Part shown: piece after piece, positions 18,225 through 61,813 of the stretch
Numbering within the stretch: position 1 is the first letter of the stretch
Layout of the letters: the number at the start of each line of letters is the position of its first letter
DNA from: an uncultured bacterium
GTDB taxonomy: Bacteria > Cyanobacteriota > Vampirovibrionia > Gastranaerophilales > Gastranaerophilaceae
Reading direction: 5' to 3'
DNA: 64,000 nt
Assembly: GCA_949288725.1 (NCBI GenBank)
Contig: CASELF010000075.1
Location: 1-64,000, forward strand
Notes under the pieces: generated by a model
The model's input: only the letters and a program-made list of their open reading frames with translations
Databases searched by the model: none
Told to the model about the DNA's origin: nothing
Position numbers and translations under genes: made by a program

Positions 18225-21200
18225 ATGCAGAAGAAATTTAGACGATTATTAACTATTGCAGCTTGTGCTACGTTATTAAGTAGTACAGGACATATAGTTA
18301 TGGCAGCCGAAGATGACGCTACCACACCTACGTCTCCATCTATCTACGGTACAATAATAGACGTTACCTCAACAATGTATGCTAATGGTGTAGATGGCTC
18401 TACGGGTATTATCTATGATATACATGACTCCGAACCATATTGGCATAGTGGTGGAACAAACACCTTATATGTCCATGATGGTGGGGATTTAACTGTTCAC
18501 GATTATACATCTTCTTCTCTTACAAATGGATTATTAATAGCAACCAGCGGTAGTGTAACAGCAGATAAAGATGGAACACTTACTATAGGTAAAAATAGTT
18601 TTATCAGACGCGATGTAAATCTTTCGGTAGTTCAAGATGCAACCCTTGCGATTACGGGCGGGGAAGTATTAATTGATACCGGTGATAGTATAAATGGTGA
18701 GATAACAGTAACCAATGGGTTATTGGAATTAGATTCCTTTAATAGATCACCTTCTACGACATCTTCAATAAACCAAACAGGTGGAACAATTACTATTACC
18801 GGTACAGGCATGGATTTTGCCAGTGATAGAGATAGTATTACCGGTGGTACTGTAAATGTTGGTCAGAATGCAACAGGTGGTTCTCTTGGAGTTAGTCATG
18901 GTTATGTTTCTTCAGGAGCAACTGTTAATATCTTTGAAAACAGTTCAATGGAGGTTAAAGGCGGTAATGTTACATTAGATGCCGGCGATACATATAGAGG
19001 TGATGTAACTTTATCCAGTGGAGAATTAAAACTTGATTCTGCCTCTAAGACATTTAATGCAACATATACTCAATCCGGTGGTGATGCAATTGTTACAGGT
19101 TCTGGTTTTGACTTAAATAATTCAACTGATAATATTTCCGGAGGCGATTTATATATCGGAGATGGAACGACAACAGGTGATTTGTCTGTAACTGAAGGTA
19201 CAATTGCAACAGGTGCCAATGTAAACGTTGGTGCCGGCAGTTCTTTGAATTTGAAAGGCGGTAATGTAAGTCTTGATAACAAAGATATCATTAACGGTAA
19301 GATTGATGTTGCAAACGGTACATTAAATCTTAATGATGCAGAAAAAGCCACCACTGCAACATTTGTACAAAACGGTGGTACTACAAATGTTACAGGAAAT
19401 AGTTTTGTTTTAAATAATTCTGAAGATGCTATCAATAATGGTAATTTGAATATTGGTGGTGATAACGGTTCAGGAACATTAACATTAAAAGGCGGTTCTG
19501 TTGCTTCTGAAGTTGATGTTAATATTTCAGGCGGGTCTAATGTTGATATAAAAAATGGCTCAATGTCACTTGATTCAAATGACACTTGGGCAGGAGATGT
19601 TAATGTTCAGGGCGGAACTTTAAATATTAAAAACACCAATAAAACCGGGGCATTAACTCAGACTGACGGAACAATCAATGTTTCCGGGAATGCTTTTGAC
19701 TTAAATTCAACAGAAGATAAACTTGATGGCGGAACATTAAGTATTGGTGATGGTTCAGTATCATCAACATTGACGGTTTCCAATGGTACAATTACCAGAA
19801 ATGAAGATGTTTATATTAACAACTATTCTAATATGAATATTTCTGGCGGTAATGTAACTATTGATTCTACAGATAGTTGGAATGGAAATATAAATCTTAC
19901 GGAAGGAGATTTAAGTCTTGAAGAGGCGAATAAATCTGCAAGCGGAATTTTCCATCAAACAGGTGGAGATACTGTTGTTACCGGTAGAACTTTTGACTTA
20001 AATAATGACCTTGATTATATTGAAGGCGGAAGTTTAACTGTTGGAAATGGTACATCATCTTCCAAATTAACAATGTCAGAAGGTTCTATTGCCAGTGGTG
20101 CTACTGTTGATTTAACAAAGAATGCAACAATAGAAGTTAGTGGTGGAGATTTAGTATTAGATACAGCAGATACTTGGAATGGTAATTTAACAGTTTCTGA
20201 TGGTACGGCAAAATTAAACAGTATCAGTAAAAATGAAGATGGTATATATACTCAAACAGGCGGTTCTGTAACAGTATCAGGTCAAGGACTGGATTTGAAT
20301 AATTCAGAGGATTTAGTCAATGGTGGTTTACTTCAAATTGGTAACGGAACAGAAACAAGTTTGACATTATCTCAAGGTACTATTGATACCGGTGCTCAGG
20401 TAAATATTAATAAAAAAGCTGAGGTTAATGTAGATGGTGGTAATTTATATCTAAACTCAGGTGATACTTGGTATGGAGATGTAAATGTAACTCAAGGCGG
20501 TTATGTAAGTATTGCCGATATAAATAAAAATGCACTGGGTACATTAAATCAAACAGGTGGTAATATTGATATTACTTCTACTAAATTTGAATTAAATAAT
20601 ACAGGAGATAAAATTTCAGGTGGTACTTTAACTGTAGGTTCAGGTTCAAAGTCAACTACGTTAGAAGTTTCAGAAGGTACTATTGACGAAGATGCTACCG
20701 TAAAATTGAATTCAAGTTCATTTATTACTGTTATGGGTAATGGTGATGTAACTTTGGATTCAGGAGATACGTGGAATGGTGGTGTTGAGGTTAACGGCGG
20801 TACTTTAACTTTAAATGATATCAATAGTAAAAATGGTGTATTATCACAATTAAAAGGTACAACCAATATAAATGGTACAGGATTAAATCTCGATAATGAA
20901 GATGACCAAATAATTGGTGGTACTTTAAATATCGGGGATGGTACTACTTTATCAAACTTGACAGTTTCAAAGGGTACAATAACAGAAGATGCAAGTGTTA
21001 ATGTTAATCAAAATTCTACATTAACCGTAAATAGTAGTGGTACGGTTGAATTAGGAAAGACAAGTTCAATCAATGGTAATATTGATGTTCAAGGCGGAAC
21101 ATTCAGTGTAGATTCTGTATCAAAAGATGCTGGCGGAAAGTTTACTCAATCAGGTGGTACAACAACAATTAAAGGTTTTGGCTTTGATTTGAATAATTCC

Positions 21201-24200
21201 GGAGATAGTATCTCAGGCGGAACATTCAATGTTGGTGATGGTACAGAGGCTAGTGAAGTTAATATTTCAAAGGGTGTAATTCAATCATCAGCAGTTACAA
21301 ATATTAATTCAAACGGTAAGTTGAACATTTCAGGCGGTACCGTAAGTCTTGGCAGTGATGATAAATACAATGGTGAAATTGATTTATCAAGCGGAGAATT
21401 AAATTTACAATCAGTTACCAAAGGTGAAAATGGTGTATTAAATCAAACAGGTGGTGTAACGACAATTACAGGAACATCATTTGGACTTGACAATGTATAT
21501 GATAGTGTAACTGGTGGTACTTTAAATATCGGTAACGGTACAATTGCAACAGTAGTAAGTGTTGGTGGTGGTACTATTACGTCAGATGCAACTACAAATA
21601 TCAATTCAAATGCGACATTGGGACTATCCGGAGTCGGAAATGTTTCATTAGACAAAGCAGATAATCTTGATGGTAATATTAACATGTCAGGCGGTACATT
21701 ATCTCTTGATAATGTAGATAAAAATGCTCAAGGTGTATTTATTCAAACAGGCGGTTCAACAACAGTAACTGGAACAGGGTTTGACTTAAATAATTACCAA
21801 GATAGTATTTCAAAAGGCTCATTAACAATAGGTGATGGAATAAAAGAGTCAGATTTTTCAATATCAGAAGGTACCGTAGAAGGTGATGTTCGTGTTGATT
21901 TGAATGCAAATTCTCAATTGAATCTGTCAGGAGGTACATTAACTCTTGATAGTAAAGATTCTTGGGATGGCGATATCAATATGACAAGTGGAGAGTTAAC
22001 ACTTGATAATGTTGATGAGAAAAATGGAACATTCACACAAAAGAAAGGTACCACAAATATTGTTGGTAAAGGTTTTGATTTAAACAATGCAAAAGATAAT
22101 ATCAGTGGAGGAACTGTAAATATTGGTGACGGAAAAGTATCATCTGATTTAACAGTTTCTCAAGGTACGATTGGTGCAGGTGCAATCGTAAACTTGAATG
22201 AGTTATCTAAGTTGAAAGTAAACGGCGGTAATGTAACCTTTAATGAAGAAGGTTCAATAAATGGTGATATTTCAGTTTCAAACGGAACATTGACCTTAAA
22301 TTCAATTGGTAAAAATGCTAATTCAAAATTAGAGCAAACAGGAGGTTCAATTACCGTAACCGGTGATGATTTCGATTTGAATAATGAAGATGATAACATC
22401 AGCCATGGCTATTTCATCGTAGGAACAGATGCCAACAAAGCGGATATGTCCATTTCAAAAGGTACAATTGGAAAAGATGCAACTACAATTATATCAAATG
22501 GCAGTACTGTAAATGTAAATGGTGGTAATTTATCATTAGACGGTGATACTGATACGCTTGCTGGTAACTTGAATATATCAAGCGGAAAATTAGAATTGGA
22601 TTCAATATCTAAAGAAGAAGGAAGTACCTTCACACAAACAGGTGGCGATACTTCAATTACCGGCAATGGATTTTCATTAAATAATGCAAATGATATAATT
22701 TCAGGCGGAACAGTTCATGTTGGCGGTACTGTAGCTGGAAGTTCTCTAGGAATTGATGGCGGTACAATTTCTTCATCTGCTGTGGTTACTGTGGATAAGG
22801 GTAGTTCTGTTATTATGAGTAACGGTACAATAACAGATGGTGCTACTATGAATTTCAAAGACACAAGTAACTTTGAAATGGCAGAAGGAATAATAACCGA
22901 TGGTGCTACTGTAAACTTGGATAATAATTCTCACTTTACAATGGATAAAGGTACGATTACTAATGATGCTGTAGTTAATGCATCAAATTCAAGTACAATA
23001 GACATTGGTCAAGGCATTATATCAGATGGTGCACAGATAAATTTAGATAATGAAGCCGTAATGAACATAGAAAACGGAGCAATAAAAGGTGGCGCAGAAG
23101 TAAATCTTAGCGATACCAGCGTTTTGAATATGGAAAACGGCAATATAACAAAGAACGCAACTGTTACATTAGAAGACAGAGCCGAATTTAATATGGATAA
23201 TGGAATGATAGCTGAGGGTGCAAACCTAAATCTAAATTCACAAAGTTCATTCAATTTAAAAGGCGGTGAAGTTGCAGAAGATGCAAACATTGTATTAGAT
23301 CAGCATGCAACAATAAACCAAACAGGTGGTAAATTAGCATTAAATTCATCAGATACATACAAAGGAACAATCAATTTATCATCAGGAAATCTAGTTCTTA
23401 ATGGAGTAAATAAAGATCCTTTAGGTGTATTAAAGCAAACAGGTGGCGATACAAAAGTTACAGGTATTGGTTTTGACTTGAATAATGCCAAAGATATGAT
23501 TTTAGGTGGTTCATTAACTGTTGGAGATGTAAATGATGTATCATCAATGACAATTTCTAATGGTACGGTATCAAAAGATGTTGATACAACGATAGTTCAA
23601 GAAAGTACCTTAAACTTGGCAGGTGGAAAATTAACGTTAGACAGTGAAGATACTATTGACGGTAATTTGAATGTAACATCAGGTAAATTAAATCTTGATT
23701 CAGCAGAAAAAAGTGAATTTGGAACGTTTACCCAAACAGGTGGCGAAACATTTATCACAGGAAATGGTTTTGATTTAAATAATGAAAACGATAATATATC
23801 AGGTGGAAAAGTAATTGTTGGCGGAACTACACCTGGTAGTGATTTAACATTATCAGAAGGTTCAATTTCATCAACAGCAAATGTAAGGGTAGATAATGAT
23901 AGTACATTAAATCTATCAGGTGGTTCAATAACATCAGGTGCTACAGTAAACATTGAAGATTCAAGTGGATTGACTTTATCTGATGGAGAGATAACCGATA
24001 AAGCGGTTATAAACTTTGAAGATACTTCTAATATGACAATGACAGGCGGAGAAGTATCAAATAGTGCAGTGCTGAATTTTGAAGATACATCATCATTTGA
24101 AATGTCAAACGGTACAATAAAAGATGATGCACAGGTAAATATTACAGAAAATTCATCAATGACGATGAATAAAGGTAAACTAACATCTGGCGCAGCATTG

Positions 24201-27200
24201 AATGTATCAAATGAAGGTATCTTTAATATGAATGGCGGTATAGTTTCAGATGACGCTAAGGTTAATTTGGAACATGAAGCAGTCATGAATATGTCAGATG
24301 GTGTTGTCAAATCAGGTGCTAGCATAAATGTTGCAGATACCAGTGTATTGAATATGACAAATGGTAACATCACTGGAACCGCAACAGTGAACTTGAGTGA
24401 TCGAGGAACCTTCAACATGGATGAAGGAACCTTTAATGATGGTGCAACTCTTAATATTGATGATCAGGGTAAGTTTAACATAAACGGCGGATCATTTGCT
24501 TCAGATGCAAATATGATTATAAGCGAGCATGGTGTAGTAAACCAAGCAGGTGGCTCAGTTGGATTAGATAAATCTGATACCTTCAATGGAATATATAATA
24601 TGACAGGTGGCGATTTAACTTTAGACGAAGTCACCAAGGCAGAATCTGCAGAATTTACTCAAACCGGCGGTAATACACTAGTTACCGGAACAACATTTGA
24701 CTTGAATAATACTGCGGATAAGATTTCCGGAGGTTCATTAACTGTAGGAACGGCAGATGAAGCATCAACATTGACAATATCAAAGGGTTCTGTCGGCGCA
24801 GAAACAGATACAACTTTAGTGAAAGACAGTACAATCAATGTAACGGGCGGAAAACTTTCATTAAATAGCAAAGACAAGATTGATGGTAATATCAATTTGT
24901 CAAAAGGCACTGTTAACTTAGATTCAGTAACAAAAGGTCAATTTGGAACATATATACAAACAGATGGTACTACAAATATCACAGGTACAGGATTTACCTT
25001 TAATAATGAAAATGACATGATCTCAGGTGGTACTGTTGTTGTAGGTGGAGAAGTTGCAAACAGTGAATTTAATCTGGCAGATGGTACAATATCTTCAAGT
25101 GCTGCAGTCAAAGTGAATAATGGAAGTTCAATCAATATGTCTGGCGGTCAAATCACAAATGGTGCGACTGTTGCATTAAATGATACTTCTAAATTCAATA
25201 TGACAGATGGTGAAATTTCAAATGAAGCATCATTAGAATTCAATGATACAACTCAGATGAATATGTATGACGGCACTATTACTGATAAAGCTAATTTGGA
25301 TTTTAACGATGAATCTCAAATGAATATGTCAGATGGAGATATCACAAACGGATCAACTCTTAACTTTAATGATAACAGCAAATTCACAATGACAAGTGGC
25401 GAAATATCAGAAGGTGCGCAAATTAATCTAAGAGATGATGCTCAAATGGATATGACAGACGGAGAAGTAAATTCAAGTTCTGTAATAACATTAAAAGATC
25501 AAAGCAGTTTCCAAATGAACAGTAGTTCAATTACTGATAATGCAGTTGTTAATATGAACAATGAATCAACCATGAATGTATCAGATGGAAAGATAGCCAT
25601 GGGTGCAACAGTAAATATGGATGATTACAGTACATTAACTATTGATGGTGGCGCAATAACAGATGAAGCAAAAGTTAATGTTAATGATAGATCAAATGTC
25701 GTGTTAACAGATGGAACGATAAGTGATGCAGCTGTAGTGAACTTGAATGATGCAGGTTCATTAACAGTAGAAGATAATGGAATTGTTGATGAAACCGCTG
25801 TAATAAATATAGGAAATCGCGCAACAGTAAACCAAAACGGTGGACAAATTACCTTGAATAGTGATGATACTTATAATGGTACATTGAATATTGCAAGCGG
25901 TGATTTGACAATAAAAGATATATCAAAAACTGAATCTGCTGTATTTAAACAAACCGGCGGAAATACAACGATTTTGGATACAAAATTTGCATTAAACAAT
26001 GATAAAGATAGAATTTCCGGTGGAAACTTGACAATAGGAACAGTTGCCGATCCTGCGATATTAACAATTAACAGAGGTCAAGTAGACAAAGAAGTATCAG
26101 TAGATGTATCAAAAGGCAGCGGAATTGAAGTTAGCGGCGGTTCATTAGTTTTAGATGGTGAAACTGATGATTTGATGGGTTCATTGACAATATCAAACGG
26201 TACATTAGAACTTGATTCAATGTCAAATAAACATCCTGAAGGTGTATTTACACAAACAGGTGGTGAAACACATGTTAAAGGTCAAGGATTTACAATGAAT
26301 AACGAAAATGATGTTATTTCAGGCGGTGTTGTAAATATTGGCGGAGATACACCTGATAGCGAACTTGCAATGACAGCAGGTACAATAAAAGGTGATGCTG
26401 TTGTAAATATTGATAATGGCAGTAACTTAGATGTTGGTGGAACTGCAGTAGTAACAGATGGTGCTAAAATAACAGCAACAGATACAAGTTCAGTTAGTGT
26501 ATCAGGAGGTACAGTAACCGGTGGTGCTGAAATCTATTTGAAAGATACAAGTGATTTGAATGTTTCAGATGGTGAAGTGACATACGATGCATATATCAGT
26601 TTGGGTGATGATGCTACATTAAATCAATCAGGCGGTAAAGTTGCATTAAGTGGTAATGAAGATGTTGTTGACGGCAGCATAAGTATTTCCGGCGGTGATT
26701 TAACTCTTAAAGATGTCGAAAAATCTACTGATGAAAAAGTTACATATAATCAAACAGGTGGTAATGTAAATCTTGAAAATTCAAAACTTGCATTAAATTC
26801 TACAGCAAGTCAAATTTCCGGTGGCGCATTAAATCTTACCAACAGTACGTTAGATGTAAATAATTCAGCAGAAAATACATCAGATTTGAGTATGACAACA
26901 AGTGAACTTACACTTCGTAACGGTAATAAATACACTGTAACAGGCGGTGATATTGATAAAGAGTCAAAATTAACAGTAGAAAAGAATGCAACATTGGCAG
27001 TTGATGGAGAGGATGCTGTAGTTAGAATAGACGGAAATAACGATGTAATTACAGGTAACATTGAAGTTGCTGATGGTAAATTATATATTTCTGATGATTT
27101 GACAAAAGTTACTAATTCCGAAGGTAATTATGTTCAAACAGGTGGTGATGTTGAAGTAAGCGATTCAACATTAGTATTGGAAACTGCAGGAAGCAAGATT

Positions 27201-28727
27201 GCATCAGGTAGTATGTCATTAAAAGATAATTCAACATTAACAATATCTGGTGCAAGTACCGGTGTTACAGGTGGTGCATTGTCTTTGGATGATACATCTA
27301 AATTGAATTACTTATCAATGGCAGGAATGGCTCAGACTACTGATAAAATTCGTTTGAATACATCAGGTTTTATGAACATGATAAACGGTGTAAGTACTAA
27401 AAATACAATAGACAGTTTAGTCGTAAATAACGGTTCAGATGGCGATGGTCAGGCAGATTTTGCAATAGATATTAATGCAAGAGCAGATGGTAATGCTGCA
27501 TCAGATTCATTTAAGGCAAATACAATTTCTGTTTCAAACAAAGATGAGGCTGGTGTAATTAACATTTCTGACTTCCAGTTGAATGGTGATGTTTATGGTT
27601 CAGCTGCTCCGATAAGTAAACATATTAGATTAGGTAAAGTATTTGATTCAGATAAGATAAGTGATGAAATTACATTTACAAGTACAGATAAAGAAATCTT
27701 TACACCGATTGGTAATTATAAATTGAACGCATCATCAGCAAATGATGGAAGTTACTCATTAGATTTGACAAGTTTCAACCCTCAAGTATTCAGAGGTCAG
27801 GTAACAACTGCGGCTTCATTCTTAAATCAATTATCAGTAAACGATTCGTTGTTTAATAAAGCACAAATCAGAAGATATAGTCCAAGTTATGGCGATATGT
27901 TCAGAAACAGAACTGCTTTAATTGAAGGTACAGCAAGTTACGATAGGACAATGAGAGAAAGTGAAGTTTGGGTAGAAGCAATAGGAAACTTCGAAACATT
28001 CAAGTTCAATAACAGCCTTGATAAAGTTCGTAACAATTCTTGGGGTATGATAGTAGGCTCAGACTTTGGTGTTAAACGTCTAAGACGTGGTTGGTCTTGG
28101 GTACCTACAGGATATATCGCATATACAGGCGGACACCAAACATTTAATGGTGTAAGTGCTTATCAAAACGGCGTACAACTCGGCTTTATGTCAAGTTGGA
28201 TGAGAGGTAAGTTTATAGAATCTGCATTGATTAATGCCGGCATTTACAATAATGATATGGATGTTGCAGGAAATTCTGAAAATGCCTTCGGATATTTTGC
28301 AGGTTTAGCAAGTAAGACAGCATACGATATTCCAATCACACATGACTTCAAGATTCAACCTGCAATCACCTTGTCATATAATATGTTTGGAAAACAAAAC
28401 TTCCACAGTGATTATGGTAATATGCACATGATGACAGGCTTCTTGAATGGTGTAAACATTGCACCTAACTTGAACTTCATATTCCAAAAAGAAACTTGGA
28501 GTGCATATGCACAGATTTCATACGCTTGGAACTTCTTTGGCGGTCTGGATGGACGAGCAGGAAATGTTGATTTGAATAATGTTAGATTGTCAGAAGGTTA
28601 TATACAATACGCACTTGGTGTAACAAAATCCTTCTCTGACAGATTAGATATGTATGCTCAGGCAACATTCAGAAACTTCGGCAGAACAGGTGTTGTTTGC
28701 CAAGGTGGTTTGAACTGGAGATTATAA
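18225..28727 (+). CDS. Giant autotransporter adhesin (type Va)
   Basis: 3500 residues. A signal peptide (about 1-27, ending HIVMA before AEDD) is followed by a passenger of ~3150 residues and a C-terminal ~290-residue autotransporter beta-barrel (from about RNRTALIEGTASYD to the terminal NWRL). The passenger has about 22 copies of a motif Q-T-G-G-x-T-x-V/I-T-G-x-x-F-D-L-N-N, spaced ~99 residues in the first third. Between later copies are arrays of 21-residue units (pattern N-M-x-x-G-x-I-x-x-G-A-x-V-N-L-x-D-x-S). Such Gly/Asn/Thr-rich repeats fold as a long right-handed beta-helix. I saw no cysteine in the passenger. BamA (54.3 kb) would insert the barrel. AAGGGA precedes the ATG closely. Monocistronic. 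Confidence 0.93.
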   Translation: MQKKFRRLLTIAACATLLSSTGHIVMAAEDDATTPTSPSIYGTIIDVTSTMYANGVDGSTGIIYDIHDSEPYWHSGGTNTLYVHDGGDLTVHDYTSSSLTNGLLIATSGSVTADKDGTLTIGKNSFIRRDVNLSVVQDATLAITGGEVLIDTGDSINGEITVTNGLLELDSFNRSPSTTSSINQTGGTITITGTGMDFASDRDSITGGTVNVGQNATGGSLGVSHGYVSSGATVNIFENSSMEVKGGNVTLDAGDTYRGDVTLSSGELKLDSASKTFNATYTQSGGDAIVTGSGFDLNNSTDNISGGDLYIGDGTTTGDLSVTEGTIATGANVNVGAGSSLNLKGGNVSLDNKDIINGKIDVANGTLNLNDAEKATTATFVQNGGTTNVTGNSFVLNNSEDAINNGNLNIGGDNGSGTLTLKGGSVASEVDVNISGGSNVDIKNGSMSLDSNDTWAGDVNVQGGTLNIKNTNKTGALTQTDGTINVSGNAFDLNSTEDKLDGGTLSIGDGSVSSTLTVSNGTITRNEDVYINNYSNMNISGGNVTIDSTDSWNGNINLTEGDLSLEEANKSASGIFHQTGGDTVVTGRTFDLNNDLDYIEGGSLTVGNGTSSSKLTMSEGSIASGATVDLTKNATIEVSGGDLVLDTADTWNGNLTVSDGTAKLNSISKNEDGIYTQTGGSVTVSGQGLDLNNSEDLVNGGLLQIGNGTETSLTLSQGTIDTGAQVNINKKAEVNVDGGNLYLNSGDTWYGDVNVTQGGYVSIADINKNALGTLNQTGGNIDITSTKFELNNTGDKISGGTLTVGSGSKSTTLEVSEGTIDEDATVKLNSSSFITVMGNGDVTLDSGDTWNGGVEVNGGTLTLNDINSKNGVLSQLKGTTNINGTGLNLDNEDDQIIGGTLNIGDGTTLSNLTVSKGTITEDASVNVNQNSTLTVNSSGTVELGKTSSINGNIDVQGGTFSVDSVSKDAGGKFTQSGGTTTIKGFGFDLNNSGDSISGGTFNVGDGTEASEVNISKGVIQSSAVTNINSNGKLNISGGTVSLGSDDKYNGEIDLSSGELNLQSVTKGENGVLNQTGGVTTITGTSFGLDNVYDSVTGGTLNIGNGTIATVVSVGGGTITSDATTNINSNATLGLSGVGNVSLDKADNLDGNINMSGGTLSLDNVDKNAQGVFIQTGGSTTVTGTGFDLNNYQDSISKGSLTIGDGIKESDFSISEGTVEGDVRVDLNANSQLNLSGGTLTLDSKDSWDGDINMTSGELTLDNVDEKNGTFTQKKGTTNIVGKGFDLNNAKDNISGGTVNIGDGKVSSDLTVSQGTIGAGAIVNLNELSKLKVNGGNVTFNEEGSINGDISVSNGTLTLNSIGKNANSKLEQTGGSITVTGDDFDLNNEDDNISHGYFIVGTDANKADMSISKGTIGKDATTIISNGSTVNVNGGNLSLDGDTDTLAGNLNISSGKLELDSISKEEGSTFTQTGGDTSITGNGFSLNNANDIISGGTVHVGGTVAGSSLGIDGGTISSSAVVTVDKGSSVIMSNGTITDGATMNFKDTSNFEMAEGIITDGATVNLDNNSHFTMDKGTITNDAVVNASNSSTIDIGQGIISDGAQINLDNEAVMNIENGAIKGGAEVNLSDTSVLNMENGNITKNATVTLEDRAEFNMDNGMIAEGANLNLNSQSSFNLKGGEVAEDANIVLDQHATINQTGGKLALNSSDTYKGTINLSSGNLVLNGVNKDPLGVLKQTGGDTKVTGIGFDLNNAKDMILGGSLTVGDVNDVSSMTISNGTVSKDVDTTIVQESTLNLAGGKLTLDSEDTIDGNLNVTSGKLNLDSAEKSEFGTFTQTGGETFITGNGFDLNNENDNISGGKVIVGGTTPGSDLTLSEGSISSTANVRVDNDSTLNLSGGSITSGATVNIEDSSGLTLSDGEITDKAVINFEDTSNMTMTGGEVSNSAVLNFEDTSSFEMSNGTIKDDAQVNITENSSMTMNKGKLTSGAALNVSNEGIFNMNGGIVSDDAKVNLEHEAVMNMSDGVVKSGASINVADTSVLNMTNGNITGTATVNLSDRGTFNMDEGTFNDGATLNIDDQGKFNINGGSFASDANMIISEHGVVNQAGGSVGLDKSDTFNGIYNMTGGDLTLDEVTKAESAEFTQTGGNTLVTGTTFDLNNTADKISGGSLTVGTADEASTLTISKGSVGAETDTTLVKDSTINVTGGKLSLNSKDKIDGNINLSKGTVNLDSVTKGQFGTYIQTDGTTNITGTGFTFNNENDMISGGTVVVGGEVANSEFNLADGTISSSAAVKVNNGSSINMSGGQITNGATVALNDTSKFNMTDGEISNEASLEFNDTTQMNMYDGTITDKANLDFNDESQMNMSDGDITNGSTLNFNDNSKFTMTSGEISEGAQINLRDDAQMDMTDGEVNSSSVITLKDQSSFQMNSSSITDNAVVNMNNESTMNVSDGKIAMGATVNMDDYSTLTIDGGAITDEAKVNVNDRSNVVLTDGTISDAAVVNLNDAGSLTVEDNGIVDETAVINIGNRATVNQNGGQITLNSDDTYNGTLNIASGDLTIKDISKTESAVFKQTGGNTTILDTKFALNNDKDRISGGNLTIGTVADPAILTINRGQVDKEVSVDVSKGSGIEVSGGSLVLDGETDDLMGSLTISNGTLELDSMSNKHPEGVFTQTGGETHVKGQGFTMNNENDVISGGVVNIGGDTPDSELAMTAGTIKGDAVVNIDNGSNLDVGGTAVVTDGAKITATDTSSVSVSGGTVTGGAEIYLKDTSDLNVSDGEVTYDAYISLGDDATLNQSGGKVALSGNEDVVDGSISISGGDLTLKDVEKSTDEKVTYNQTGGNVNLENSKLALNSTASQISGGALNLTNSTLDVNNSAENTSDLSMTTSELTLRNGNKYTVTGGDIDKESKLTVEKNATLAVDGEDAVVRIDGNNDVITGNIEVADGKLYISDDLTKVTNSEGNYVQTGGDVEVSDSTLVLETAGSKIASGSMSLKDNSTLTISGASTGVTGGALSLDDTSKLNYLSMAGMAQTTDKIRLNTSGFMNMINGVSTKNTIDSLVVNNGSDGDGQADFAIDINARADGNAASDSFKANTISVSNKDEAGVINISDFQLNGDVYGSAAPISKHIRLGKVFDSDKISDEITFTSTDKEIFTPIGNYKLNASSANDGSYSLDLTSFNPQVFRGQVTTAASFLNQLSVNDSLFNKAQIRRYSPSYGDMFRNRTALIEGTASYDRTMRESEVWVEAIGNFETFKFNNSLDKVRNNSWGMIVGSDFGVKRLRRGWSWVPTGYIAYTGGHQTFNGVSAYQNGVQLGFMSSWMRGKFIESALINAGIYNNDMDVAGNSENAFGYFAGLASKTAYDIPITHDFKIQPAITLSYNMFGKQNFHSDYGNMHMMTGFLNGVNIAPNLNFIFQKETWSAYAQISYAWNFFGGLDGRAGNVDLNNVRLSEGYIQYALGVTKSFSDRLDMYAQATFRNFGRTGVVCQGGLNWRL
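18765..22735 (+). repeat. Tandem ~99-residue (297-bp) beta-helix repeats
   Basis: About 14 degenerate copies, each with the sequence of blocks QTGG-TxITG-FDLNN, then xISGGxLxIGDG, then LxVSxGTI, then ATVNxNxxSxLxxxGG, then xxLDSxDxWNGxIxVxxGxLxLxxxxK. Identity is protein-level; DNA copies have diverged, so this is an old expansion. Confidence 0.85.
22788..26630 (+). repeat. Interspersed arrays of 21-residue (63-bp) repeats
   Basis: Four arrays (about 22788-23310, 23880-24535, 25090-25835, 26395-26630) alternate with further 99-residue units. Each unit reads roughly F-x-M-x-x-G-x-I-x-x-G-A-x-V-N-L-x-D-x-S. One unit of 21 residues is about one beta-helix rung. Confidence 0.8.
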
Positions 28728-54304: not shown

Positions 54305-56320
54305 TTGAATTTAAGAACAATAACAAAGAAATTAGTGTTAGCGCTAATGCTGACAAGTATAATTCAAGTATCAGGGTATGCTGTAGATGATGTCTGGGGA
54401 GGAATGGGTCTAACAGAAGATGCAGTTCAACAAGACAGCAACTACGCAAACACTGTTTTTGATAAATATACAGACTATTCTAAGAATCCAGCCCCAACAG
54501 TTAACAATGGAAAATACCCTACGGATTTGACCGGTACAAAAGAAACAGTATCTGCATCAGATACAGAAAAGCGTACCATTAAAAATATTGAATTCTATGG
54601 TCTAAACTCAGTTTCTCAAGATGAATTGCTCGAAAAAATGCAGATGAAGCAGGGCGAAACTTATTCTCGTGATATGCTGCAATCTGATTTAAAGGCAATT
54701 TATGAAACAGGTTTCTTTACTGAAAATATGAAAGCAATTCCTTCCAAAAATGATGACGGTTCTGTGACAGTGAAAATAGTTGTAGAAGAAAACTTGCCAG
54801 TCAAAGACTTTACTGTGGAAGGAAATACTGTTGTTCCTATCGAAGATATTTTGGCGCTTCTTTCAGATATGAAGGGAAAACCTCAAAATATCACCAAATT
54901 AAACGCTGCAATCGCTCAAATTCAAGAATTGTATAACTCAAAAGGTTATATTCTTGCCAGAGTATCTTCAGTTAATGATGATCCTGACGGAACAATCAAT
55001 ATTACAATAAAAGAAGGTATTATTGACAAAATCATGATTGAAGGTAACGAAAAGACCAAAGACTACATTATTGCCCGTAATGTATTAACAGAACCCGGCA
55101 TGATATATAATGAAAATCTTATCAAAGAAGACTTGGTAAGGTTGTATGCAACACAAGCCTTTAAAGATGTAACAAGAGAAATTGAACCAAGCGAAGATGT
55201 TCCGGATGCTTACGATATTACAATAAAAATTCAAGAGCAAAGGACTGCAAGTATATCTGTTGGTGGTGGTATTGATACAGTTACAGGTTTATTCGGGTCA
55301 ATGGGTATAACAGAAAACAACTTCCGTGGCAGATGTGAAAGATTATCTTTAACTGGTTTAGTAGGTACAGGTGTTATACTTAACGATTCATCCGTAAAAG
55401 ATCACATGAACATTCAAGCTGAATTAAGTTATTTTAAACCTTACTTCATAAATTCAGATACGTCCTTAAACAGCAGATTGTTCTTTAGAGATTTCGGATC
55501 ATATCAAGTACCGTTGGCGGTAGAAAGAAGATATGGTGCTGAGGCAACCGTATCGCATAGATTGAAAAAGAATAGACACGCATCAGCATCATTTAGTTTG
55601 GGCTTAGAAAATATTGATGTACGAGAAGGTGATGCTAATGGTATTGCAAATATGTACAACAAGTATAATATACCTATCTCACGTCGTGCCGAACAGTTAG
55701 AAGGCGGATTATTCTTGTCATTAAGCCCTGCAATAATCTATGATACCAGAGATTCAGCAACTGTAACACGACATGGTACAATGGCAAGTTTACGTTTTGA
55801 TGAAAACTTTGGTATGGATGGTTTTGATAAGACAAACGGAAAACTTACAGGTATGATTAAACAATACATTCCGATTGGTAAAAAATCATCATTATCATTC
55901 ACAGCAAAAGGTGGCGGAACAATTCACGGAGATATTCCTGAGGTTATGGCATATCGTTTAGGTGGTCCATATACAATCAGAGGTTTCAAAATGAGTGGTG
56001 TTGGTACAGGTAATGCTTTCATCATGGGATCTGCCGAATTTGCAACACCAATTCCATTTATGGATAGGACAAGAATTGCATTCTTGAATAATATCAGATT
56101 CACAGTTTGGGCTGATGCAGGTAAAGTATTTGACGGTACAATATCAAACAAGTTGTATGACAGACCAATGGAAGCGTTATCTGTCGGTGTTGGTTTGAAA
56201 GTGTTTGTACCGGGCATGGGACCATTGTCAATCGATTATGGTATTCCGCTTACCAATCCGGGTGATAACGGCTCAAGAAACGGATACTTTACATTTGGTG
56301 TAGGTGATTTGTTATACTAA
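54305..56320 (+). CDS. bamA: Outer-membrane assembly protein BamA (Omp85)
   Basis: 671 residues. A signal peptide (about 1-25) precedes a ~65-residue low-complexity linker, three POTRA domains (starting near TIKNIEFYGLNSVS, PVKDFTVEGNTVV and IIDKIMIEGNEKT) and a 16-strand barrel (from about residue 325). The Omp85 L6 motif is PYTIRGFKMSG near residue 555. Three POTRAs, rather than five, is typical of cyanobacterial Omp85. It inserts beta-barrels, presumably including the autotransporter and porin here. The start codon is TTG with AAGGGA ahead. It forms an operon with skp; udp follows. Confidence 0.94.
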   Translation: MNLRTITKKLVLALMLTSIIQVSGYAVDDVWGGMGLTEDAVQQDSNYANTVFDKYTDYSKNPAPTVNNGKYPTDLTGTKETVSASDTEKRTIKNIEFYGLNSVSQDELLEKMQMKQGETYSRDMLQSDLKAIYETGFFTENMKAIPSKNDDGSVTVKIVVEENLPVKDFTVEGNTVVPIEDILALLSDMKGKPQNITKLNAAIAQIQELYNSKGYILARVSSVNDDPDGTINITIKEGIIDKIMIEGNEKTKDYIIARNVLTEPGMIYNENLIKEDLVRLYATQAFKDVTREIEPSEDVPDAYDITIKIQEQRTASISVGGGIDTVTGLFGSMGITENNFRGRCERLSLTGLVGTGVILNDSSVKDHMNIQAELSYFKPYFINSDTSLNSRLFFRDFGSYQVPLAVERRYGAEATVSHRLKKNRHASASFSLGLENIDVREGDANGIANMYNKYNIPISRRAEQLEGGLFLSLSPAIIYDTRDSATVTRHGTMASLRFDENFGMDGFDKTNGKLTGMIKQYIPIGKKSSLSFTAKGGGTIHGDIPEVMAYRLGGPYTIRGFKMSGVGTGNAFIMGSAEFATPIPFMDRTRIAFLNNIRFTVWADAGKVFDGTISNKLYDRPMEALSVGVGLKVFVPGMGPLSIDYGIPLTNPGDNGSRNGYFTFGVGDLLY

Positions 56321-56340: not shown

Positions 56341-56790
56341 ATGAAACGTATAAAACTTATGGCATTATTATTGACTGCCGGCTTAACCTTTGGTACTGCT
56401 TTACAGGCTAATGCAGAAGTTGGATATATTAATTACCAAAAAGTTTTGGAAAATTATCCTGCTGCACAACAAGCAATAAAAGAAATTGATGCAAAAACAC
56501 TTGAAATTCAACAATTTATGGTTGATAAAGAAAGACAATATAAATCTTTAGATACACCATTAAAGAAACAAAATTTTGAAAATCAAACAGCAAATGAGTT
56601 GAAAGCAAAACAAGAGGCAATGTATAAATTGCAAAATGACAAGCAAACTCAAATCTTAACCCAAGTACAAAACGCAGCAAAAAGTATAATGGTAACACAG
56701 AAACTTGATGCTGTATTATCTGATGAAGTTGTATTTGTTGGCGGTGTTGACATTACAGAACTTGTAATTCAAAAATTGAAGGGAATGTAA
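56341..56790 (+). CDS. skp: Skp/OmpH-family periplasmic chaperone
   Basis: 149 residues. A signal peptide (MKRIKLMALLLTAGLTFGTALQANA) is followed by EVGYINYQKVLENYPAAQQAIKEID, the family's beta-strand and tentacle start, a coiled-coil arm (about 45-110) and the closing VDAVLSDEVVFVGGVDITE-type strands. Skp carries unfolded outer-membrane proteins through the periplasm to BamA. Its position directly after bamA (20 bp) and the GAGGAGG site support co-expression. Confidence 0.92.
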   Translation: MKRIKLMALLLTAGLTFGTALQANAEVGYINYQKVLENYPAAQQAIKEIDAKTLEIQQFMVDKERQYKSLDTPLKKQNFENQTANELKAKQEAMYKLQNDKQTQILTQVQNAAKSIMVTQKLDAVLSDEVVFVGGVDITELVIQKLKGM

Positions 56791-56815: not shown

Positions 56816-57574
56816 ATGAAATATTCAGAAAATGGCGTTCAATATCATATAGGATTAAAGGAAGGTGACGTTGGAGAATATGTAATTTTACCTGGAGATC
56901 CTAAGAGATGTAAAAAAATTGCTGAATATTTTGAAGATGCAAGATTGATAGCAGATAACAGAGAATTTGTAACCTATACCGGATATTTGGGCGGTGAAAA
57001 AGTCAGCGTTACATCTACCGGTATAGGGGGGCCATCTGCATCTATTGCATTGGAAGAATTGGTTAATGTTGGTGCAAAAACTTTTATAAGAGTCGGCACA
57101 TGCGGTGGAATGCAATTGGATGTTAAAGGCGGGGATTTGGTTATTGCAACAGGTGCAATTCGTATGGAAGGAACAAGCAGAGAGTATGCTCCTATAGAAT
57201 TTCCTGCAGTGGCTAATTTGGATGTTGTTAATGCAATTGTTCAAGCGGCTAAGAATCTTGGCTATCAATATCATACCGGTATTGTTCAGTGTAAAGATTC
57301 TTTCTACGGTCAACATTCTCCTGAAACGAAACCTGTTAGTTATGAGCTTATGAACAAATGGGAAGCGTGGAAAAAACTTGGGTGTTTGGCCTCCGAAATG
57401 GAATCTGCCGCATTATTTGTAGTTGCAAGTTATTTGAAGGTGAAAGTAGGTTCAGTATTTTTGACAGTAGGCAACCAGGAAAGAGAAAAACTTAATATGG
57501 AAAATCCTATTGTGCACGATACCGAAAAAGCAATAAAAACTGCTATTGAGGCTATTAAAATATTAAAAGGATAA
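56816..57574 (+). CDS. udp: Uridine phosphorylase
   Basis: 252 residues, hexameric nucleoside phosphorylase family 1. It cleaves uridine with phosphate to uracil and ribose 1-phosphate. [52 protein letters not shown], and the catalytic [12 protein letters not shown] are present, along with [18 protein letters not shown] precedes the ATG, 25 bp after skp. Its product is the substrate of DeoB (first gene in the window). Only 3 bp precede the FlhA-domain gene. Confidence 0.92.
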
Positions 57575-57577
57575 TTT

Positions 57578-59062
57578 ATGTTCAGAAAAAACAGAATGGA
57601 ATATGTAATAAAATCATGCTCAGCAAGTGATGCTCAGGATTTGCAAAATTTACTCAACGAAATGTCAATGAATGGTTGGGATTTATATAGTATGCATGAT
57701 GTAGAAGATGAAGATGGCGGATCTCAACTTAATTGTATATTTATGAGAGAGATAAAAACTGATAGTTCTACTGAATCTGACATAATTAATATTTCTGATT
57801 TTAAAAGCCAAATGGAAAAAATGCTTTCTCCAAAGATGAACGAATATGAAAAGTGTGTCGATTTACAGGAAAAGATTAGAATACGTAAGGAAAGTATCAA
57901 TAAAATTAAAGCAGAAATAGAAGGTGAAGCACCGGCATCTGTTTCTAGGAAAAAATTAAACGATAAAATTTCTGCAGGATTAAAAGAATTAGAGGATTTA
58001 AAAGTCCAACTTAATAAGGCAACTTCTCCTGATTTAATGTATTCCAAATTGCATGAAGAAAAGTTGACAATTTATTTAAGTGAAGAACTTTTAGGACTTG
58101 TGGATTCAGATAGAAATACTGATTACGAAGATGATTTGATTGCCGAAACGGTCAAATCAAGATTACATATAACGGAAAAATACGGATACGTTATTCCGAA
58201 AGTTGTTTTTAAAGATGATGAAAACTTAAATCCTTGTGAATTTAGTATTAGAATACGTGGAATGGAAGTTTTCACTGGTGGAGTTGTGCCAAATTCTTTG
58301 ATGTTTTATGCTGATGATATTCATACTGAACATAAGATTAAAAACTCTGTTAATGCAGTTGATGAAATTACTGATAGAAAAGTTATATGGATAGAAAAGG
58401 ATAAGGCGAAGGATTTTTGGCAAAAAGGTTTATCTGTTTCCGAATATATCGCAAGAGCATTGGAATATGTTGCGGTAAAGCATGTGGATGATTTACTTGA
58501 TTATGAAGATATAGATAAATATCTTGAAGTTGTAGAGAAGGAAAATGAATTTTTAATAGATAATATTATTCCTGATTTGTTGACTTATTCAGATATCAAG
58601 TATTTATTGACAAGTTTAATAAAGGAACGAGTTTCAATCAGAAATATTACGTATATATTTGAAAAGATTAATGACTTTGCCGAAGAAGGCAGCAAGGCTG
58701 ATATATTGAATAAAATTCGTCTATCATTGTCAAGACAAATATGCAAACCTTATGTAAATGATGATGGGGAATCAATAAGTGCATTTGAATTATCAGAAAA
58801 AACATATTCTGAGATAGTATTAGGTTGTGATGAAAGTGAAGATTGCCTTATCAAAATTGATGGTGCTTTAGCAGAAAAACTTGCTAATAAAATTATCAAA
58901 AAAATGAAAAGGTTAAAAATTCACAATTTAATTTTAATTGTTCCAATGGACTACAGACAAATATTTTTCACATTGCTATCTTTGTATATAAAAGATGTAA
59001 CAGTTTTGGCAAATGAAGAATTAGGCTGTATGTATCGTGTTGAAAGTCTTGGAGAAATATAG
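57578..59062 (+). CDS. Soluble FlhA/SctV C-terminal domain fused to a DUF4177-like domain
   Basis: 494 residues without any TM segment. Residues ~6-55 (MEYVIKSCSASDAQDL ... MNGWDLYSMH) look like DUF4177, whose core ends in G-W-E-L. A coiled coil spans ~85-160. Residues ~160-494 follow the FlhA/SctV cytoplasmic (FHIPEP C) domain: EKYGYVIPKVVFKDD, CEFSIRIRGMEVFTGG, VIWIEKDKAKDFWQKG, IPDLLTYSDIKYLLTSLIKERVSIRN, LSRQICKPYVNDDGE and DVTVLANEELGCMYRVESLG. In flagella and type III secretion this domain forms the nine-subunit ring that sorts chaperone-substrate complexes. It is 3 bp after udp and apparently cotranscribed. Function here is unknown. Confidence 0.78.
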   Translation: MFRKNRMEYVIKSCSASDAQDLQNLLNEMSMNGWDLYSMHDVEDEDGGSQLNCIFMREIKTDSSTESDIINISDFKSQMEKMLSPKMNEYEKCVDLQEKIRIRKESINKIKAEIEGEAPASVSRKKLNDKISAGLKELEDLKVQLNKATSPDLMYSKLHEEKLTIYLSEELLGLVDSDRNTDYEDDLIAETVKSRLHITEKYGYVIPKVVFKDDENLNPCEFSIRIRGMEVFTGGVVPNSLMFYADDIHTEHKIKNSVNAVDEITDRKVIWIEKDKAKDFWQKGLSVSEYIARALEYVAVKHVDDLLDYEDIDKYLEVVEKENEFLIDNIIPDLLTYSDIKYLLTSLIKERVSIRNITYIFEKINDFAEEGSKADILNKIRLSLSRQICKPYVNDDGESISAFELSEKTYSEIVLGCDESEDCLIKIDGALAEKLANKIIKKMKRLKIHNLILIVPMDYRQIFFTLLSLYIKDVTVLANEELGCMYRVESLGEI

Positions 59063-60466: not shown

Positions 60467-61813
60467 TTAAATTTCTACACCTTGCATCATATTGATTAAT
60501 TGATTAATTGTACCTTCCATAGTAACGCTTTCATCAGTTCTTTGTTGTAGAAAAGCGTTAATTTTAGGCATCATTTCAATTGCGGTATCAAGTTTTGGGT
60601 TAGAACCGGGCTGGTACATACCAACGTCAATCAAGTCTTTGTTTTCCCTGTAAAGTGACATAATTGCTCTTAATTTACCTGCGGCTTTTTTATGTTCAGG
60701 AGAGGCAATAGCACTCATTAAACGGGAAATACTTCCTAAAACATCAATAGCGGGATAGTGGTTTGATTCAGCAACTTTTCTGGATAAGAAAATGTGTCCG
60801 TCAACAATACCACGTACGATATCAACGATAGGGTCAGAAATATCATCACCTTCCATAAGTACGGTGTATAAGGCTGTAATAGAACCTCTTGGGCTGTTTC
60901 CTGCACGTTCTAAAACTTTTTGTAACCAAGAAAATATTGATGGCGGATAACCCTTCATTGTTGGCGGTTCTCCAAGTGATAAGCCTACTTCACGTCCTGC
61001 CATTGCACAACGAGTAACCGTATCTGTCATAAGGAAAACTTTTTTACCTTGATCTCTGAAATATTCACATACTGCCGTTGCAGTAAGTAGTGCTTTTTGT
61101 CTAATCAATGGAGGTTGATCACCTGTTGAACAGACCAAAACTGATTTTGACATACCGTATTCGCCAAGTGAATCTTCTACGAATTCTTTAACTTCACGAC
61201 CACGTTCTCCGATTAGTGCAACTACGTTTACATCAGCATCAGAGTTTCTGGCAATCATACCCAAAAGTGTACTTTTACCGACACCTGACCCCGCAAATAA
61301 CCCCAAACGCTGTCCGCAACCCATTGTCATACAGCCATCTATTGCTCTAACACCTGTTGAAAATTGTTCTGTAATAATTGGTCTTTCAAATGGTCCCGGT
61401 GGAGGTCCTTCAATTTCTTTCCACAATGCGTTTGATGTATCTAATGGTTTTCCGTCAATAGGATTTCCTAAGGGGTCTATTAATCGCCCTAATAAAAAAT
61501 CACCCACAGGAATTGTTATCGGACGTCTTGTTGTTGTTACTAAACTCCCTTGTCCGATGCCATTTCCGTCAAGTAATAATGATAGTTGTGCTACTTCACC
61601 TTTAAATGCTTGAACTTCTGCCGGTTTCAGTTCTCCTGCATAGTTTTCAATGTAACATAAATCACCTATCTTTAATCCCGGTAATTTTACTTCTACAGTT
61701 AGACCTAATAGTTTTGATACAGTTCCTTTAAAGGTGTATAGTTCTGTGTTGGCAAGTTTTTCTTTAACATTTTGTTTTATTATTTCAAGACTATCTTTAT
61801 TAAAATCATCCAT
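60467..61813 (-). CDS. FliI/SctN-type export ATPase
   Basis: 448 residues, the size of flagellar/type III export ATPases. Walker A is LGLFAGSGVGKSTLLGMIA (near residue 165), Walker B KVFLMTDTVTRCAMAGREVGLS. GEPPTMKGYPPSIFSWLQKVLERAGNSPRGSITALYTVL and DGHIFLSRKVAESNHYPAIDVL are FliI hallmarks that separate it from F1 beta and Rho. Such ATPases strip chaperones from substrates at the export gate. No fliH, fliJ or basal-body gene is adjacent; a soluble FlhA C-domain is 1.4 kb away on the other strand. A -35/-10 pair places the transcript start at the ATG. Confidence 0.92.
   Translation of the reverse strand: MDDFNKDSLEIIKQNVKEKLANTELYTFKGTVSKLLGLTVEVKLPGLKIGDLCYIENYAGELKPAEVQAFKGEVAQLSLLLDGNGIGQGSLVTTTRRPITIPVGDFLLGRLIDPLGNPIDGKPLDTSNALWKEIEGPPPGPFERPIITEQFSTGVRAIDGCMTMGCGQRLGLFAGSGVGKSTLLGMIARNSDADVNVVALIGERGREVKEFVEDSLGEYGMSKSVLVCSTGDQPPLIRQKALLTATAVCEYFRDQGKKVFLMTDTVTRCAMAGREVGLSLGEPPTMKGYPPSIFSWLQKVLERAGNSPRGSITALYTVLMEGDDISDPIVDIVRGIVDGHIFLSRKVAESNHYPAIDVLGSISRLMSAIASPEHKKAAGKLRAIMSLYRENKDLIDVGMYQPGSNPKLDTAIEMMPKINAFLQQRTDESVTMEGTINQLINMMQGVEI

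Follow-up and report, generated by a model that had tools for sequence, protein, structure and literature searches.

The 494-residue open reading frame at positions 57578..59062 (+ strand) of the 64,000-nucleotide stretch of DNA analysed here, referred to as the window, encodes a soluble protein that is paralogous to the cytoplasmic ring domain of FlhA, the flagellar export gate. Its fold is that of the FlhA cytoplasmic domain (FlhA_C), and the half of FlhA containing eight transmembrane (TM) helices is replaced by a DUF4177-type module and a helical segment. Ordinary FlhA carries its eight TM helices ahead of the cytoplasmic domain and, to our knowledge, FlhA and SctV are normally integral membrane gates, with one kind per export machine. 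We assign a probability of about 0.5 to the proposal that the paralogue acts as cytosolic accessory ring or adaptor of a filament-less, flagellum-derived type III export apparatus that contains the full-length FlhA of the same genome, termed FlhA1. The genome belongs to the Gastranaerophilales, an order of cyanobacteria that live in the gut and are non-photosynthetic.

The reading frame is intact, of a length that is near-constant among orthologues across the order, and in a profile search it matches the Pfam family FHIPEP (PF00771) with an E-value of 1.2e-47 and a score of 163 bits, compared to a cut-off of 29.1. Residues 144-482 cover positions 314-652 of the 657 positions of this profile, corresponding to the cytoplasmic half of FlhA, and no match was found in the reading frame for positions 1-313, which describe the multi-TM membrane half. 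The NCBIfam model for FlhA (TIGR01398, E 2e-44) aligned with residues 136-494 on its positions 320-678 at 151.9 bits, which is below its equivalog cut-off of 772.1, and the SctV model TIGR01399 was matched at 2e-25 and 89 bits, below its equivalog cut-off of 692. Among solved structures, those nearest in sequence belong to the cytoplasmic domain of FlhA (B. subtilis 3mix, E 8e-23). In a sliding-window hydropathy analysis, TM-like windows were absent in 31 of 33 orthologues and limited to one each in the other two, compared to 6-9 windows detected by the same procedure in full-length FlhAs. Since hydropathy reveals no TM segment and the preceding gene udp terminates only 3 bp upstream, the TM half is truly missing from the paralogue, and the short distance accommodates neither a hidden TM part nor a frameshift. 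The FHIPEP match and the hydropathy confirm the TM-less FlhA/SctV cytoplasmic domain that a preliminary description of this DNA had recognized, and the profile search that it had suggested returned a strong match instead of none. Its placement of the homology, which was thought to start at the sequence YGYVIP, holds for the relationship to FlhA but not for the starting point, since the FHIPEP match begins earlier and includes a linker at residues ~144-161. No RNA families were found in the region of the reading frame.

An AlphaFold2 model calculated from 33 orthologues (mean pLDDT 81, pTM 0.64) recovers the FlhA_C fold and not a different one. Its best match in the PDB as identified by Foldseek is 6ch2_C (E 4.4e-21, TM-score 0.82 by target), and the listed PDB matches are all FlhA_C or SctV_C domains, including those of MxiA, InvA, YscV and CdsV. 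The FlhA_C part extends over 58061..59038 (+ strand) and is divided into D1 (residues 162-238 and 287-306), D2 (239-286), D3 (307-385) and D4 (386-487), with borders that we presume to correspond to those of the Salmonella FlhA structure. It is preceded by a segment resembling the FlhA linker (residues 144-161, 58007..58060, + strand), whose sequence SPDLMYSKL is similar to NPNRMYERL of FlhA1 and in which P151 is conserved in 100% and M154 in 94% of the aligned paralogues, with both residues being conserved in 100% of the FlhA1 sequences. Ahead of the linker, in a region that had been described as a coiled coil, the model contains helices at residues 72-83, 89-115 and 122-149 (57791..58024, + strand), for which we infer the packing of a coiled hairpin.

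The N-terminus harbours a beta-alpha-beta-beta domain related to DUF4177 and Sp36 (residues 6-59, 57593..57754, + strand), with a strand at residues 6-15, a helix at 19-31 and strands at 35-43 and 49-59 modelled with a pLDDT of 87, in agreement with the compact beta-alpha-beta-beta fold of the DUF4177 family. The suspected relationship to DUF4177 is suggested by the orthologues, 24 of 26 of which match PF13783 (best 7.2e-5) and 26 of 26 the NCBIfam model Sp36 (NF053529, best 1.5e-7), with the window protein itself scoring below the curated cut-offs of both. We found no second copy of this domain elsewhere in the same genome and, by sequence search, no solved relative. A search with its fold gave nothing below an E-value of 0.05, with the C-terminal domain of KCTD5, ACT-like and dodecin domains as weak hits.

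The genome of the window (2.2 Mb, 95.9% complete) contains two proteins with FHIPEP matches, the paralogue and, on a different contig, the 702-residue full-length FlhA1, which rules out that the paralogue is the sole FlhA of the genome that was cut short. FlhA1 ends a cluster of the composition fliE-fliF-(339 aa)-fliH-flhA, and the same contig encodes FliO, FliP, FliQ, FliR and a FliN-like SpoA protein. FlhB is found on a third contig, and four rod-type proteins, FlgF, FlgG, FlgB and FlgC, on a fourth. The genome-wide search proposed beforehand thus located fliH, flhB and a full-length flhA. An export ATPase of the FliI/SctN type (TIGR01026 8.4e-165; T3SS_ATPase_C 1.3e-29) is encoded as convergent near neighbour of the paralogue at 60467..61813 on the - strand. 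Searches of this genome for flagellin (PF00669), FliG_C (PF01706) and the P-ring protein FlgI (PF02119) gave no matches, with controls that worked; as the assembly is a draft, single absences are no proof. From this inventory, we recognize a filament-less flagellar-type export machine with rod proteins and without a recognizable torque ring. Among the 191 family genomes, 76 contain flagellin, which was not detected in any genome sampled from the genus of the window. In genomes of the same order with flagellar genes, a second full-length FlhA (FlhA2) is located beside fliP-fliQ-fliR-flhB, and the neighbours of FlhA1 are rod genes, fliE, fliF, the 339-residue protein and fliH.

FlhA1 is kept across flagellin-less Gastranaerophilales (machine loci L044:7866-10212, L003, L037 and L038), a pattern that points to a secretion apparatus under conservation and not to decay. 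The FliQ of this machine is roughly double the normal size at 162 residues and is extended at its C-terminus (L037:9132-9620). In one genome (G400), flhA2 and flhA1 are adjacent and convergent (L097:7862-12087), so that flagellar and filament-less export loci abut, and another (G092) contains 20 flagellin-domain matches, several of which are located in reading frames of over 600 residues. The protein of about 339 residues occupies the position of fliG between fliF and fliH (L003:14849-15868 in the genome of the window; L102:12872-14406; L119:7664-8341), has no match in Pfam or NCBIfam and is possibly a replacement for FliG. In some genomes, paralogues of its N-terminal part that carry a C-terminal hydrophobic tail are encoded close to the FlhA_C paralogue.

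With the window protein as query, matches were obtained in 190 of 191 genomes of the Gastranaerophilaceae. In 184 of the 191, as read from the match table at this threshold, the best match has an E-value of 7e-69 or lower and is the short paralogue, with the rest showing a weaker match or none; the few genomes without it are about what assembly incompleteness would give. An alignment of 33 rows used as query found the paralogue in 10 of 10 sampled genomes from four other families of the order at 7e-121 or better, compared to only about 1e-67 for the best match in other orders. Strong matches in 16 closely examined genomes are reading frames of 478-519 residues within the order and of about 700 residues outside, and the scores in a sample of the phylum are separated by a gap (482 vs 251 bits). 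As sampled, the paralogue is absent from other orders and from the rest of the phylum. The phyletic distribution that was asked for in the preliminary description is thus that of one monophyletic, order-wide family of near-constant length, and its conservation beside an intact FlhA supports the idea that the domain was repurposed. In a phylogenetic tree, all sequences of the paralogue group together in one clade, which is supported at 100/100 and has a long stem. The free tree places it outside the FlhA1 clade, but a single clade with the FlhA1 of the order is not rejected (p-AU 0.07) and the branch of the paralogue is long, so that the paralogue may or may not have arisen from FlhA1 by a duplication within Gastranaerophilales. 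Apart from cases that incompleteness would explain, we saw no genome in which only one of the two, paralogue or FlhA1, is present; their co-existence is weak evidence and no independent test of a connection since both are universal in the order. Because the paralogue is near-universal while flagellin is found in only part of the family, its occurrence follows that of FlhA1 rather than that of the filament.

In Salmonella FlhA, the residues D456, F459 and T490 dock FliS, FliT and FlgN (PMC8166844). When aligned to E. coli FlhA and 26 full-length FlhAs, the paralogue shows an altered version of this chaperone dimple (58361..58456, + strand), where the Asp is kept as D262 and the equivalents of F459 and T490 are T265 and R293. 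Among 38 orthologues, the Asp is conserved in 100%, the Phe is replaced by Thr (71%), Ser (21%) or Asn (7%) and the Thr mostly by Arg (60%) or Lys (18%), leaving the Asp as the only fully kept residue; in FlhA1, the Phe position is Tyr or Phe and the Thr position mostly Thr, Ala or Ser. As the docking residues are only partly kept, the chaperone-docking role that had been considered initially has lost strength. Other positions are strictly conserved, with the equivalents of E. coli R391, G399, P403, W465, L544, E559, R579, I586, R655, V671 and E676 kept in 100% and that of E547 in 97% of the aligned paralogues. Among the subdomains, the mean pairwise identity is highest in D3 (0.56-0.60), which we take to be the main ring contact of FlhA_C, and lowest in D4 (0.35-0.38). 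The paralogue is closer in sequence to FlhA1 than to FlhA2 (0.33 vs 0.23 in D1; 0.37 vs 0.30 in D3). With a dN/dS of ~0.06-0.14 relative to the two nearest aligned relatives, at saturated dS, the alignments indicate that it is under purifying selection.

The paralogue is part of an apparent operon starting with bamA (54305..56320, + strand), followed by a skp/ompH-like gene (56341..56790, + strand) and the nucleoside phosphorylase-like udp (56816..57574, + strand), whose names are based on the preliminary description and the sequence rather than a profile library. The described gene order is conserved: in 108 of 136 loci, the immediate upstream neighbour on the same strand is udp, a further 11 have deoA or skp at this place, and bamA-skp usually comes ahead of the upstream gene. 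The median gap to this gene is 22 bp across 120 loci. The paralogue is thus mostly located in a bamA-skp-udp context and not in an export or flagellar operon. A conserved neighbourhood with fliI was ruled out, as it is limited to the closest relatives. Deeper branches contain the paralogue in other contexts, so that the link to bamA is not general; in the deep-branching genome G316, it is found directly upstream of fliJ (PF02050, 1.4e-17), fliK, flgD and flgE, with latter two genes named from sequence. Elsewhere in the window, a repetitive reading frame of 3500 residues (18225-28727) begins like a signal sequence and resembles an autotransporter at its C-terminus; its product is probably a large surface adhesin. 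Just downstream of the window, a 2241-residue protein contains a calpain-type Peptidase_C2 domain (3.4e-7, L004:10273-16998) and a smaller neighbour of 465 residues (L004:8859-10256) shares a similar motif; both might possibly be exported.

A link between the paralogue and export is likely, based on homology, the universal co-existence with FlhA1 and the occasional neighbourhood. In the proposed mechanism, the paralogue would reside in the cytosol and use its D1-D3 face to oligomerize, to stack on the FlhA1_C ring or to mix with it, and the changed D1/D2 pocket, D4 and the DUF4177 module may present substrates or adaptors other than those docked by FlhA1 to the filament-less apparatus kept by the sampled Gastranaerophilales. 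Ring formation, the partnership with FlhA1 and the role towards substrates or adaptors are what we infer. The reading as a whole is favoured by the fold and sequence of FlhA_C, the presence of FlhA1 and further export and rod genes in the same genome, the order-wide conservation irrespective of flagellin, D3 as best-conserved part, the closer relation to FlhA1 than to FlhA2, the fliJ-fliK-flgD-flgE neighbourhood in G316 and the low dN/dS. Against this reading stand the bamA-skp-udp location outside an export operon, the sporadic linkage to fliI and fliJ and the changes in the dimple and D4. Its most specific version, a soluble second FlhA ring that would constitute a membrane-unanchored export-gate layer with its own specificity conferred by the DUF4177 module, in a machine without filament and torque ring, is a tentative and rather doubtful possibility.

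The stable bamA-skp-(udp or deoA) operon with its short gaps and the remodelled dimple would also fit a paralogue that had left the export pathway and whose FlhA_C fold served as scaffold for another cytosolic task, possibly in envelope biogenesis in view of the likely co-transcription with bamA-skp. We regard this as unlikely, as the gene is found elsewhere in deeper branches, such as beside fliJ-fliK in G316, and FlhA1 is present there too. Slightly less likely still is a soluble mimic acting as negative regulator or decoy, which would bind FliJ, FliI/FliH or the FlhA1 linker via the kept D1/D3 face and hold the gate off. In its favour, the protein is soluble as judged by hydropathy, and its linker (SPDxMYxKL) and D3 have been retained despite the changes to the chaperone pocket and D4; against it, D4, which in Salmonella binds FliJ jointly with the linker (PMC8166844), is its least conserved part. 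Although most of these genomes were described to have an incomplete set of flagellar genes (PMC4040986), the chance that the paralogue is a decaying flhA fragment or the result of a frameshift or misassembly is negligible in light of an intact, length-conserved gene under purifying selection that is present in 184 of the 191 genomes from the family, which stem from many assemblies, with a 3-bp gap to udp that leaves no room for a TM half and a separate full-length flhA.

An order-wide soluble paralogue beside FlhA would demonstrate that ring and membrane channel of FlhA are separable, and the protein offers a natural system for asking what this ring does alone. Its conservation suggests in addition that the 'incomplete flagella' described for Melainabacteria of the gut, earlier read as genome reduction, constitute a conserved machine, possibly with a secretory function in the animal gut.

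Our literature searches, with subscription papers mostly outside their reach, found no description of a TM-less FlhA or of a type III system of Gastranaerophilales. In the description by Soo et al. (PMC4040986), most such gene sets do not suffice to encode a functional flagellum. The accessible part of Di Rienzi et al. 2013 (PMC3787301) lists two flhA loci among 13 flagellum-related genes common to four genomes, including the filament-less MEL.A1; the second is probably the paralogue gene, and that part says nothing of missing TM helices, an additional domain or a normal FlhA alongside. As in Gastranaerophilales, flagellar export genes are retained without flagella in Lysobacter enzymogenes, where, according to the accessible sections of the report (PMC7277350), they remain able to export heterologous flagellin and have an effect on twitching; these sections do not mention a TM-less FlhA paralogue. 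With DUF4177 and Sp36, the paralogue shares the beta-alpha-beta-beta fold, and its LLNxMxxxGWxLY...CIF pattern aligns with both models, with the domain of the window protein scoring below the curated cut-offs; here it is fused to FlhA_C. SctV, InvA, YscV and HrcV belong to the same fold and family, but the sequence of the paralogue is nearer to FlhA, and SctV contains the TM half; the DNA stretches examined revealed no injectisome genes. With FlhA itself, the paralogue shares homology, the four-subdomain fold of the cytoplasmic domain and core residues, but it lacks the eight-TM half, carries an additional DUF4177-like module and helical segment, has altered equivalents of F459 and T490 and a diverged D4, and is mostly encoded outside export operons.
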